A stretch of DNA of 64,000 nucleotides from contig MDYQ01000014.1 of the NCBI GenBank assembly GCA_003024175.1, positions 62,001 through 126,000 of the forward strand, given 5' to 3'. Shown here one piece after another: positions 1-64,000 of this stretch. Source of the stretch: Planoprotostelium fungivorum. Taxonomy: Eukaryota; Evosea; Variosea; Cavosteliida; Cavosteliaceae. The position numbers were made by a program, and so were the translations under genes. The notes under the pieces were generated by a model. The model was not told the DNA's origin. It worked only from the letters and a program-made list of their open reading frames with translations, and did not search any database. The stretch's first letter is position 1; the number at the start of each line of letters is the position of its first letter.

Positions 1-3000
1 CGTTCGAAAATTTTCACACTCATCACCACAGTCTCACAACTGCATCTACTGTGACAAATCAGACAAGAAGACGAGACAGTGCACGAGCTGTGACCTATGG
101 TACCATCCAGCTTGCTCGAAGGAGAACGAAGTGGAAGCCCCTTACGAGACAGGAGAGACGACCGAGAGCGACGAGAACTGCGCCGAATGTGTGAGTCAAC
201 GTTTCATATCATTCTCACTCTTTTCTGACGTTCAACTTAGAATTACGGAGCCAACATGGGTAAAGTAGAGAAGATCCTGTCAGTCAGGGAGGCCGAGGAC
301 GGTTTATCTCCTCAGTATCTCATCAAGTGGGAAGATTTATCTCATCTGAAGAACACCTGGGAGCCACGCAGGAGGATCAACTGTATCTCTCGCAGGAAGT
401 TGGCCAATTTCGATGCCAGGTGTGCACATTTTTATGTTCGAGAGTTGACGTGCGGCAGATTCGAAGGGCTGGATGAAGAAGAAAAAGCGAGAACTCTGGC
501 CAACATGGTCAGGGAAGAGTGGGGCAAGGTGGACCGCATTGTAGACAGGAGGTACCCGCGATCACGTGATCGAGAAAACTCACTGAAAACTCAGGACGAG
601 CGGCGACAAGACCGAATACCTGATCAAATGGGAGGCGCTTCCATACAGTCAATTGACATGGGAGGACGAAAAGATTGTAGAGGGACACAAGGACAAAGTG
701 GAAAAGTTTGAAGCTTCTCTCGTCCCACAGAAATTGAAGAAGAAGAAGAGCTCCGAGAAGGAAGTGGCCTTTCAAGAGTACAAGAACCAGCCATCCTTTT
801 TACCGTCTCAATTGTATCCATGGCAACTGGAAGGTCTCAATTGGTTGGTCTATTCGATGTATAAGAAGAGGAACGTCATTCTGGCCGACGAGATGGGTGA
901 GTCGACGAAATTTGAAATTCCCGCCACTTTTTCCCGTCTGACGATTGTCGTAGGTCTGGGTAAGACCATCCAGTCCATGTCTTTCATCTTGCACTGCTCC
1001 GAAGCTTGCCGTGAGTTGTAGATCGATTCGAAATCTCGCCGACATGTCACAGATAACCCCGGCCCCTTTCTCATTGTAGCACCTCTGTCCACCATCTCCA
1101 ATTGGGAGAGAGAATTTATAAAGTGGGCACCTCATCTCAACCTCATCACGTACACCGGAGACAACGATTCAAGAGAGAACATCAGGTTATTCATTTCTAT
1201 CCTCTCATAGGTTGACTCTGAATAGGAAATATGAATTCAAACACGAGAAGGGTTACCAACCCAGATTCAACGCGGTCCTGACGACGTACGAGCTGGCTCG
1301 AATGGAGGCGAAACACCTAAAGAAATTCGACTGGCAGGTCCTCATTGTAGACGAAGGCCACAGACTCAAGAACGCCGAATCGAAGAGTTCGAGCGTACTG
1401 AGCGACTATAAGATCGAAAAGATTCGAATCTTATTGACGGGTGAGTCACGTGACCGCCGCGTGAGTAACGTACGTACAGGTACTCCCCTGCAGAACAACA
1501 TCGGAGAATTGTTCGCCCTGCTTCAGTTCTTGGAACCGGAGAAATTTCCGGAGCTGGAAGACTTGGAGAAGGAGTTTGCAGATCTGTCGGACGGAGAGAA
1601 AGTGTCCCAGTTGCACAAGATGCTCCACGAGTATATTTTGAGACGTACGAAGAATGACGTGGAGACACCAGTGCCACCCAAGGTGAATCCATCTGTCCCA
1701 ATTTTTATCTTTTATTTTCGCGAATTGATATTTTCACTTTTCTCACGTTTTTCTCTCTTCATCTCACTCTTCTTACTTTTTTCTCACTCTTTTCCTTACT
1801 TTCTTCTCAATTTGTTCTCACTTTATGGTTCAGGCAGAGTTTGTCGTGTTAGTGGAGCTATCTCCCCTGCAGAAGCAATGGTATAAGGCCCTACTGACAA
1901 AGAATTACGGTGTCTTGAACTCGAACCCCAAGTCGGGCGGCGTGAAGACCTCCCTCTTGAACGTTCTCATGCAGCTGAGAAAGTGTTGCAATCACCCTTA
2001 CCTCTTTCCCGAGGTGGAGCCATCCAACATGACGAAGGAAGAAGAGATGAGGCTGATGAGTGAGTCATCACATCGTGATCACGATCATCGTTGACGATCA
2101 CATCATGATCATGATCATCGTTGACGATCATATTGAGATGATGATGACACTTTGCAGTTGAAGCATCGGGTAAGCTGTGGTTACTCGACCGCATGCTGGA
2201 GAAACTGAAAGCCGGAGGACACAGAGTCCTCATCTTCTCTCAGATGACCAAGATGCTCGACATCCTCGAAGACTACCTCCACCACAAGAAATGGAAGTAC
2301 GCCAGGTGATCCATCTACAACTCGCCAAGATATAACGTGACTCGTTGTAGATTGGACGGTGACATCCGAGCCGAAGACCGCACCCACTCGATCAAAAAAT
2401 TCAACGAAAAAGATTCGGAGGAGTTTGTCTTCCTCTTGTCCACAAGGGCCGGAGGTCTCGGCATCAACTTGCACACGGCAGACACGGTCATCCTCTATGA
2501 TTCAGACTTCAACCCACACAACGACATCCAGGCGCTCAGGTGATAGACGGAAGTGGATTCAAGTTGAAAATTTTCAGTCGAGCTCATCGTATCGGGCAAT
2601 TGAAGAAGGTCATGATCTACCGTCTCGTCACGAATAAGACGTGAGAAATTTCACCGAAATTTCCGGGGAAAAGTCGGGGAAATTGACGCGTCGACAGTTG
2701 TGAGGAGGGAATAGTGCAGAGAGCGAAGGACAAATTGATCTTGGAGCACATTGTCGTCAAATCAGTAAAGGAGAAATTGAAGGATGACGAACTACAAGCC
2801 ATCTTACGCTACGGTGCAGAAGAACTCTTCACCGAACGAGAGAGGTGAGACGTTGCCTTTGTCATCAGGTGCTCATGATGTCCAAGGTTCGAGTCGCTCA
2901 CTGTGGATGATATGAAGGACCTCTTGGAGAAGAACAACATCTCAACGGAAGATTGCAGAGTCAAATCGGACTACGAGAGAAAGATCACGTCGTACCAAGT

Positions 3001-61829: not shown

Positions 61830-64000
61830 CTATCTCCTCTGCTGGCGGTTTGCCAATAAGAGGGCCAGGAGAGTGGCGACTCTCCAGAAGATGCCCATGC
61901 CCAACAAGACGTAGACACACTCGAGTAGTGAGTCGATGCGGTAGCCGAAGACATCGAGCTGGCTCTGTTTCGTCGGATCTAAAGCGGGTGTGAAGTTCTT
62001 GGCGTTGAGAACGTAGAAGGCTTCCATGGTCCATCTCGGGAACGAAACCTCCGCCATGTAATAGACTGGGTGATGATTAGAAGATGGTCGCGATGATGGA
62101 TGTGATATCGTCGGAATCGGATCATCACGCACGTATGGGATTGATGTCTTTGAGTCCAGACAGAGTTGGGTTGAATCCAGACAGAGTCGTTTGGACCTGT
62201 AGACGTCTTAGACGTCTCTCTTCTCCTCTCCTCTCACCATGATGGTGACGACTCCAAACAATTGGGCCTTCGAGTATAAGACGATGATGGAGATGAACTG
62301 TGCTAGGCCCGAGATGACAAAGTGTTGGAGGAAGAGGATGCCAAAGTAGGCGCCAAATGTTCCTGCAGTTGCATCAGATGCGATCGGATGTGTCACATGA
62401 GAAGATGGTCACCTCTCGGTTCGCTGATGGTGTAATAGAAGACGAGGAAGATGAGAGCGGTGACCAAAAAGGAGGGGAAAGAGGCGACCGATTTTCCAAA
62501 GAAGTAAGATATGCCTGCGATTCCATCATCCAAAGAAGATGACGGTATCGGATGATGATAGTGTCGGATGATGATGGTGTCGGATGATGATGACGGTGTC
62601 GGATGATGTGAACTTACCGTTCAGACCGGCAGCGTTCTCTCTCCAGTAGACAGTCTTCTCTGCTCCGAACAGACGAAGTGATACGATCATGGAGGTCAAG
62701 CTGGAAACCAGAACCAACAAGAAGGCCGCTTGGGGGATCTATATACATCAACATCTCATCTTCTAAAAGTGACGGTGATGTGATGATGATGCGATGATGA
62801 TGTGATGATTTCAGTTTAGACATACCTGAGCAGGTGTCGGGTTGCGATAGACGAGCCCAACGATGATACCACAGGCGATAGACAACAAGATGTCGCTGTG
62901 GATCGTGCTCGACATGCGATACTGCTGACGCAGCGTCCTCACAAAGACGTAATACGCTTGCCAGAAGGGGTTCGTGTTCTGATGACATGAGGAGGAGGAA
63001 ATAAATAAAATAGAATAAATACCTTCCTCTTCGCACCGTTATACGCACGAAATTGAGTCGAGCTGTCGAAGACTGATGGCGTGAGGGAGTCTCTCTCTGG
63101 ACCTGTCTCCAGTGAGAAAAACAATAAAACGAAATAAAATCACCGCTGATGAGATCGAGAAAGAAATCGCAGGGATTTTGAAAACGTTCGGGGCTGTGTC
63201 CTTGGTTCTTAAAATATTCCAACACCTGCAGAGATGAATCCTCTTCCAAATGCCTCTCTTCACCATGGATTTGGGTCCGTTGTAGATGGTGGTACCACCC
63301 TTCTTCAGAAGTAAGATGTCGTCGAATTGATCAAAGATATCGTAACGAGGCTGATGGATGACAGCGACAATGTTGACTGTACGCATTCAGTACGTTCCTA
63401 GAATATTCCGAGAAGGTTCTCGAAATTTCACCTCCGATCTGGGTCAATCGCTTGAGAGTCTGGAGACGGTCAGACATCGTTGTAGATGAACAATAAAACC
63501 AAATAAAATCACCTGACACAGATTCAAAGACATGGCAGAATCCAACCCCGAAGTCGGCTCGTCCTACCCTCCTTCAGATCTTTCCCTTACCATTCCAAGA
63601 ATATTCCGAGAATATCTCCAGATTTTTCGAAGAATCTTCTCACCAGGAAGAGTATGGAAGGTGAAGCGACGATCTCCATGCCAATGTTGACCCTCTTTCT
63701 CTGACCACCTGATACACCCCTCCTCCCTTCATCACCCACCACCGTGTGTCTCACTTGATACAGTCCGAGCAGATACAGACAAGACTCTACGATCTATAGA
63801 GGTTGAGTCCGTGTCACGTGTGCGGTGTCACCTCTTTTAATTTCTTCCTGCTGCATCCTCTAGCCTGACGGAATTGAGCGGAGAACATTAAATTCTCGTA
63901 GACAGTCAATTCTCTGTGCATGACATCATCCTGCACATCTTTCAGTTTCTAAATAAATAAAAAGTTGAGACGTGTCGGTGTCATCAAGAAAGAGTTTCCG
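61830..64000 (-). CDS. ABCG-type (White-like) transporter, 5' end outside window
   Basis: An ABCG half transporter with the ATPase before the membrane part. The visible ATPase begins after Walker [21 protein letters not shown] (Q-loop region), then [14 protein letters not shown] (signature), [17 protein letters not shown] (Walker B), [18 protein letters not shown] (H-loop) and [19 protein letters not shown] linker follows ([12 protein letters not shown]). The membrane half has [83 protein letters not shown] and [18 protein letters not shown]. It ends [26 protein letters not shown]. The order and VQDDVM motif resemble the ABCG24/28-like group of plants and amoebae. The substrate is unknown; lipids or hydrophobic compounds are usual. 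Intron lengths are about 40-110 nt, with GATGATG repeats near 62535-62600 and 62770-62815. Confidence 0.9.
63460..63512 (-). repeat. ABCG intron carrying the T/A module plus ATCTACAACG
   Basis: A 53-nt intron before [10 protein letters not shown]. The sense strand opens GT, then GATTTTATTT, GG, TTTTATT, GTT, CATCTACAACG (complement of 63478-63510). It matches the PAS-kinase intron at 57993-58153 at about 29 of 33 positions. Confidence 0.7.

Follow-up and report, generated by a model that had tools for sequence, protein, structure and literature searches.

The 64,000-base window (the whole stretch of DNA that was analysed) contains genes of CHD-type remodeller, kinase-like (assigned by eye), SNF2-type, eIF2-gamma and IFT172-like character, of which the IFT172-like, CHD-type and kinase-like ones hint at a flagellated protist. 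Scattered through the window is a ten-base word, CGTTGTAGAT. A scan of both strands found 24 exact and 22 one-mismatch copies of this word, 46 altogether. Under a fourth-order Markov model built on the window, 0.64 exact copies would be expected; of all window 10-mers with at least five copies, CGTTGTAGAT comes first. Across the 36.9 Mb genome, the exact word occurs 7,984 times (3,973 and 4,011 by strand), compared to 62 times (27 and 35) for a control with its letters reversed. The dispersed word proposed in a preliminary description of this DNA is thus real and considerably more abundant than was reported there; 29 of the 30 positions listed match a copy with at most one mismatch within 1 nt, the exception being 16696, where there is none. 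Among the papers listed in literature searches there was no report of CGTTGTAGAT, and the titles among the matches listed for its letters dealt with other topics.

With copies located by the window scan and intron or exon status assigned by self-trained gene models, several copies coincide with splice acceptors. In the CHD-type gene, intron 2306-2350, which is 45 nt long, has an exact word (2343..2352, plus strand) as its acceptor; the exon begins with AT, and the alignment to CHD4 is ungapped over the junction. This intron is a two-ended case, as a one-mismatch antisense word (2313..2322, minus) lies just past its donor. Exact words also form the acceptors of introns 17069-17192 (17067..17076, minus) and 23798-23901 (23894..23903, plus), and a one-mismatch word forms that of intron 33529-33570 (33527..33536, minus). 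Intron 17069-17192 carries in addition a one-mismatch antisense word (17088..17097, plus) and an exact sense word directly past the donor (17178..17187, minus). Two further exact words may be the true acceptors of introns, one within a predicted 172-nt intron that could be shorter (35777..35786, minus), the other in the SNF2-type gene, where the predicted intron is too long (37963..37972, minus). Near donors, exact antisense words are found in introns 23054-23113 (23067..23076, minus), 23511-23642 (23520..23529, minus) and 52460-52499 (52468..52477, minus), the last of which is a relative of intron C1:112694. A one-mismatch antisense word lies near the donor of a predicted minus-strand intron (13249..13258, plus), a one-mismatch word overlaps a donor (GTGAGTTGTAGAT; 1014..1023, plus) and an exact sense word directly follows the donor GTG of intron 58888-58936 (58924..58933, minus).

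Other intronic copies include exact sense words in intron 24174-24216 (24193..24202, plus) and predicted intron 34332-34365 (34348..34357, minus), exact antisense words in predicted intron 34568-34725 (34585..34594, plus) and introns 57993-58153 (58117..58126, plus) and 63460-63512 (63478..63487, plus), and a one-mismatch antisense word in intron 58473-58527 (58497..58506, plus). Three introns hold paired words: the 18-bp palindrome GTCTACAACGTTGTAGAC, made of two overlapping one-mismatch words (30301..30318, intron 30297-30339 of the kinase-like gene), an inverted pair of one-mismatch words (41093..41113, intron 41067-41122 of the eIF2-gamma gene, where the eIF2-gamma alignment is gap-free at the junction) and a near-palindrome of two one-mismatch words (58278..58295, intron 58256-58304). 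Exact words in predicted intergenic DNA lie at 9234..9243 (minus), at 31658..31667 (plus) and 40244..40253 (minus), which are 127 and 70 bp off predicted starts, and at 50828..50837 (plus), 77 bp before the start predicted for the IFT172-like gene. Five exact copies fall in predicted exons; these are an antisense word coding for I-Y-N (10224..10233, minus), a word whose site resembles 45628 in a paralogous gene (14255..14264, plus), a sense word (22921..22930, plus) and two antisense words (45628..45637, minus; 63278..63287, plus). All five were among the 17 of 46 window copies absent from the preliminary list.

Self-trained gene models on 324 kb (approximately 0.9% of the genome) placed 80 exact copies as follows: 32 within introns, 19 at an intron-exon junction, 15 in exons and 14 in predicted intergenic DNA. 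Predicted introns make up 46.5 of the 324 kb, and the word density in introns is about 10 times that in exons or intergenic DNA with junction copies included and 6-7 times without them. As the counts were nearly the same (31, 19, 16 and 14) when the word was masked in gene-model training, intron placement is not a product of circular gene calling. The comparison of introns, exons and intergenic DNA proposed in the preliminary description, run here on the 324 kb, thus bears out an enrichment in introns over exons, but the word is not intron-exclusive, with 15 exonic copies compared to the 0.9 expected by a codon model. Seven of these 15 copies are in the frame encoding Ile-Tyr-Asn, which would fit a mutational or compositional by-product, for example of Ile-Tyr-Asn codon usage or local repeats; such an origin is extremely improbable and, as the main cause, is already refuted by the reversed-word, Markov and codon-model controls.

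The words also cluster by region (chi-square 69.5, compared to a mean of 16 and a maximum of 54 in 20,000 permutations). This clustering, along with the thousands of exact copies, which are mostly intronic in the sample and lie on either strand, could suggest a promoter or processing motif for intron-derived small RNAs, by analogy with the upstream motif of nematode piRNAs, a comparable motif for small RNAs. Arguing against such a motif, which seems very improbable, the 20 nt on either side show little conservation except for a branch point where the word is an acceptor, GGA next to antisense copies and the palindrome halves, and no Rfam family was found in the window.

All 19 junction copies in the 324 kb are sense and at the acceptor, so that 19 of 525 acceptors consist of exactly CGTTGTAG followed by AT in the exon, compared to 0.04 expected; one-mismatch words are found exactly at an acceptor four times (0.45 expected). 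Of 58 sense intronic words, 22-23 lie exactly at the acceptor (1.0 expected), and 16 of 32 antisense words with at most one mismatch in or around introns begin within 10 nt past the donor. Acceptor use rests on the gene models, with the CHD-type gene as the one case checked by alignment. When introns were chosen by the intron end CGTTGTAG alone, and not by the full ten bases, the exon started with AT in 19 of 22 introns, compared to 16 of 61 other introns ending in TAG and 79 of 503 of all others. The word therefore runs past the splice junction into the exon, and it serves as the 3' splice site in one discrete class of introns, about 4-5% of those sampled. A TGAC-type branch point lies directly upstream of the acceptor words. 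Exactness is also highest at acceptors, where 19 copies are exact and 4 have one mismatch, compared to 18 and 18 for other sense intronic copies and 14 and 19 for antisense intronic copies.

These observations would fit a splicing signal read in RNA. In some introns, UGACUCGUUGUAG followed by AU would then be a dedicated module combining branch point and 3' splice site, and antisense words past donors would base-pair either with sense words or with a small RNA. The discreteness and exactness of the acceptor class, its branch point and the non-random position of words relative to splice sites all favor such a signal. In addition, the arrangement GTGA N18-37 word is found 1,655 times genome-wide and GTGA N0-7 followed by the reverse complement 1,132 times, compared to approximately 620 and 250 by chance as estimated from the word count. 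On the other hand, the word reaches into the exon and, rather than being limited to introns and a single RNA strand, also occurs as antisense copies (14 exact ones in introns), as 287 palindromes and in excess in exons, none of which a purely splicing element explains. An exact donor-antisense and an exact acceptor-sense word are rarely found in one short intron, which argues against general intron-internal pairing, and RNA folding is barely stronger in word introns than in others (mean z of -0.63 for 39 word introns and -0.42 for 313 other introns); a stem-loop was rejected as a common feature on this basis. The suggestion that the word is an intron-associated site recognised by an RNA or a protein finds support, in its general form, in the acceptor-word class, but its snRNA part was unsupported, as no consistent complementarity to the word was found in the copies tested (1 of 3 U6, 4 of 15 U2 and 3 of 6 U1 matches) and the best pairing, 9 nt including G-U pairs, involved a single U1 copy. 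Overall, we consider an RNA-read splicing signal somewhat doubtful.

The 324 kb contain 18 sense and 14 antisense exact intronic copies in addition to the 19 at acceptors, and genome-wide the word forms an 18-bp palindrome of two overlapping copies at one fixed overlap 287 times (control, 0). Genome-wide, exact words 1-30 nt apart form 35 convergent pairs, in 11 of which the spacer is a single base, compared to 2 divergent pairs. Word variants in the 324 kb sample, where all positions were compared, concentrate at the first two and the last bases; genome-wide, where one edge and one core position were compared, changing the last base gives three variants with 4,098 copies in total (control, 500), and changing one core base gives three with 546 (control, 157). 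Occurrence in both orientations, a dimer form with fixed spacing and position-specific substitution tolerance are all expected of a DNA-binding site. Among two duplicated loci, one pair shows no difference at all, and the other has a single base difference, which lies immediately ahead of the words and leaves the words themselves unchanged; this comparison is uninformative because the pairs are nearly identical, and the conserved words of the C2 and C4 pairs are not evidence, as these pairs had been found by requiring the word.

Taken together, the reading we favor, with a probability of roughly 0.43, is that CGTTGTAGAT is a double-strand DNA site for a putative, probably dimerising factor, concentrated in the introns of some genes and regions and co-opted as an acceptor because it contains TAG. 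The ratio of 7,984 to 62 copies, the presence of all orientations, the palindromes, the edge tolerance, the extension into the exon, the exonic excess and the regional clustering all argue for a DNA site, as does the intron enrichment of two other palindromes, TGACGTCA (30 in introns, 9 in exons, 9 intergenic) and TCACGTGA (14, 2 and 5), which we take to be known transcription-factor sites. Several results count against it. Acceptor coincidence exceeds what a passive DNA site would predict, and the greater exactness of acceptor copies over antisense copies shifts some weight to a splicing role. Core-base variants are few, yet still 3.5 times the control. Intergenic word density is 7-10 times below that of introns in the 324 kb, even though promoter-type sites would be expected there; a predicted start lies less than 200 bp from 8 of the 14 intergenic copies (2.3 expected), with start calls being unreliable and two of these eight copies being halves of one palindrome. 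First predicted introns are not favored (9 of 106 carry the word, compared to 63 of 419 later ones), and a promoter-proximal enhancer motif was rejected for this reason. No link was found between the word and expression level as estimated from codon bias (rho 0.0007, 61 genes).

Under the DNA-site reading, the factor would bind duplex CGTTGTAGAT at one half-site, or would occupy the 18-bp palindrome ATCTACAACGTTGTAGAT as a dimer. A protein would read DNA rather than RNA, and the word could regulate genes from within gene bodies. It would be retained mainly in the introns of certain genes and regions, and the spliceosome would take a sense word as the 3' splice site because this word contains TAG and fits 10-11 nt downstream of a TGAC-type branch point. 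A bolder and rather unlikely extension is that introns chiefly serve as docking sites for a nuclear factor reading a strict decamer and that, in perhaps at least 1,000 introns, the same ten bases serve as binding site and 3' splice site, coupling binding with acceptor choice in a genome-wide switch that ties gene-body binding to intron retention. Very short introns are usually thought to carry little besides splice signals; a word that outnumbers its reversed control more than 100-fold, is concentrated in introns and coincides with acceptors would offer an unusually clear example of selection on sequence within them. This raises two testable questions, namely whether tiny introns function as regulatory DNA and whether the same sequence can be used for DNA binding as well as for splicing. 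As the site is strict and abundant, a search for the factor should be simple to try.

The HIP1 octamer of cyanobacteria is likewise a hugely over-represented short palindromic word with an unclear role, but is prokaryotic and not linked to introns. The Arabidopsis intron-mediated enhancement motif TTNGATYTG, which acts from transcribed sequence in introns or exons with no need for splicing (PMC6760150), resembles CGTTGTAGAT as a short, intron-dispersed word. The Arabidopsis motif is promoter-proximal (PMC6760150), whereas CGTTGTAGAT, a different word, is not enriched in first introns, has a palindromic form and doubles as an acceptor. The strict 3' intron structures of intron-poor eukaryotes also fix the spacing between branch point and 3' splice site in a strict motif; these cover most introns of an intron-poor genome (PMC2483917), whereas CGTTGTAGAT marks 4-5% of the introns sampled from a genome rich in introns and also occurs reverse-complemented and beyond the splice site.

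Introners, like the word introns, comprise thousands of introns with common ends and inverted repeats near splice sites, and their families share sequence along the intron, some with target-site duplications (TSDs) or paired inverted repeats (PMC9860276, PMC7789003); unlike these, word introns share approximately 10 nt, mostly at one end, without a TSD. If short terminal-inverted-repeat elements had made these introns and the terminal word alone survived, words near intron ends, the far larger numbers of palindromes and convergent pairs than of divergent ones, a T-rich start common to three introns and a whole-intron pair (C1:112694 and window 52460, 87% over 38 nt) could be explained. We regard such relics as improbable, since word-bearing introns with the word masked are no more alike than others (among 437 introns of at most 130 nt, 1 match in 1,128 word-word pairs and 181 in 75,466 pairs formed by the others), mismatches are tolerated at the edges of the word instead of following a uniform decay, and removal of the CHD intron leaves no extra residue. 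The search for target duplications called for by the preliminary description found no excess at intron boundaries at 17 offsets (-8 to +8) in 23 acceptor-word and 19 donor-antisense introns, and inverted repeats paired at both ends are rare, given 35 convergent exact pairs among 7,984 words. The family of introner-like dispersed introns with terminal inverted repeats suggested there was consequently rejected on masked intron similarity, absent TSDs and the small number of two-ended cases; the word looks like a factor binding site and not like a copied intron. The pair formed by C1:112694 and the window intron at 52460 stands as an exception to the absence of whole-intron likeness.

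The ten-base word CGTTGTAGAT was found in 24 exact and 22 one-mismatch copies on the two strands of the window, and ranked first among window 10-mers with at least five copies (0.64 exact copies expected under a fourth-order model). This abundance extends beyond the window to the entire genome; the 36.9 Mb, 471-contig assembly holds 7,984 exact copies, about equally divided between the strands, versus 62 copies of the reversed word (the same letters read backwards), which served as a control.

To place these copies, a simple gene-finding model was trained on 324 kb (the window, C1:1-200,000, plus 20 kb from each of C20, C60 and C120, all contigs of the same assembly); the gene models are thus derived from sequence alone, and the sample covers 0.9% of the genome, with four-fifths of it from two contigs. 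The model predicted 525 introns (median 48 nt) with AG/GTGAGT-type donors and mainly CAG acceptors. The sample comprises 46.5 kb of intron, 138 kb of exon and 139.5 kb of intergenic DNA, and its 80 exact words fall into 32 intron-internal, 19 acceptor, 15 exonic and 14 intergenic copies. Retraining without the word gave almost the same result (31, 19, 16 and 14, respectively), with 71 of 529 introns holding the word when up to one mismatch is allowed. For two word-bearing introns, homology offered a check: once its intron is removed, the CHD4 alignment is gapless across 109 residues, and the eIF2-gamma alignment is gap-free at the word-intron junction, with a four-residue gap at another place. 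Certain long predicted introns are probably wrong, and four of them look like shorter ones with the word as their end. Part of the exonic copies may likewise be missed introns. Two exonic words (window 14255 and 45628) lie at corresponding sites of paralogous genes that are 82% alike over 112 nt.

Word-bearing introns are unevenly distributed (from 0 of 39 in C1:20-40 kb and 0 of 26 in C20 up to 20 of 47 in C1:180-200 kb), a regional spread far exceeding permutation. Per-gene overdispersion was 29.2 versus 22.3 in 2,000 shuffles (standard deviation 1.7, maximum 29.4), region and gene effects being confounded in these counts. Codon bias showed no relation to the word distribution.

One-mismatch copies in the sample (93, versus 21 for the reversed word) are unevenly spread over the positions of the word. 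Variants are concentrated at the last base (C 17, A 11, G 6), the first (A 8, G 7, T 5), the second (A 8) and the third (A 4, G 4, C 2), and every remaining variant occurs 0-3 times. Genome-wide, copies altered at the last base number 4,098 over three variants (control 500), and those altered at one core base 546, again over three variants (control 157, still a 3.5-fold difference). We read this pattern, with one core position counted genome-wide, as that of a putative recognition site with a strict core; the pattern alone would also be compatible with very recent copying of the core only. Moreover, the palindrome ATCTACAACGTTGTAGAT has 287 copies genome-wide, and word pairs with spacers of 1-30 bases are convergent in 35 cases, including 11 with a one-base spacer, versus 2 divergent pairs. 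Since the word pattern is strand-symmetric, palindromic and strict-core, as in double-strand DNA sites, the word may represent such a site, a reading to which we assign a probability of roughly 0.43. Acceptor use would then follow from the TAG inside the sense word.

At acceptors, the last eight intron bases and the first two exon bases together spell the word in 19 introns and differ from it by a single base in 4 more (column-shuffling expectations of 0.04 and 0.45), with TGAC-type branch points immediately upstream. Among 22 introns chosen solely for ending in CGTTGTAG, AT follows in 19, compared with 16 of 61 other TAG introns. Other introns carry the reverse complement a few bases past the donor, often as GTGAGTCC-ATCTACAACG; genome-wide, GTGA N0-7 ATCTACAACG has 1,132 matches (about 250 estimated by chance from the word count) and GTGA N18-37 CGTTGTAGAT has 1,655 (about 620). 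That the word is purely a splicing element, of the kind that the preliminary description considered, nevertheless appears unlikely, taking into consideration that the exon dinucleotide AT belongs to the word, that antisense and palindromic copies are numerous, that exonic copies are in excess (15 versus 0.9 in a codon-aware simulation) and that RNA folding of word introns is weak. However, acceptor use is more frequent than expected from passive co-option (22-23 of 58 sense intronic words, versus 1.0 expected) and exactness is highest among acceptor copies (exact to one-mismatch 19 to 4, versus 18 to 18 for other sense intronic and 14 to 19 for antisense copies), a frequency and exactness that leave room for a real splicing link. 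No consistent match to the word was found among the snRNAs tested. Matches to U2 (14 loci above the Rfam cut-off, with at least two sequence types among 4 examined) and U1 (6, of which 4 above the cut-off) lie on C27, C90, C120, C123, C387 and other contigs.

The other reading in the preliminary description, that word introns are introner-like, here taken as introner relics, is more doubtful still: with the word masked, word-bearing introns are no more similar to each other than other introns, no target site duplications were found at word-intron boundaries, and short introns with the exact word at both ends are few. The exceptions are one whole-intron related pair (C1:112694-112734 and window 52460-52499, 87% alike over 38 nt, word included) and three window introns, 57993-58153, 62979-63263 and 63460-63512, sharing a T-rich start (ATTTTATTT..TTTTATT), which the word directly continues in two of the three; these three are possibly a small intron family.

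With regard to the double-strand DNA site, other palindromes are also intron-enriched: TGACGTCA (introns 30, exons 9, intergenic 9) and TCACGTGA (14, 2 and 5) have densities about 8-20 times higher in introns of the 324 kb sample, so that the short introns of this genome may harbour several putative sites of this kind. Long palindromes (half-length at least 7) are in excess in introns (36 versus 4.4 expected), slightly so in intergenic DNA (16 versus 8.6) and not in exons (8 versus 8.0). Two similar introns, C2:100725-100769 and C2:106712-106756, differ in their central palindrome (GGACGTCC versus GAACGTTC), both variants remaining palindromic. GGCGGGAA, which we take to be an E2F-like word, occurs 12 times in introns, 19 times in exons and 5 times in intergenic DNA of the sample (258, 138 and 36 per Mb, respectively). 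The top intron-enriched 8-mers of the sample are CATCA/TGATG-type simple repeats, e.g., at window 3310-3515.
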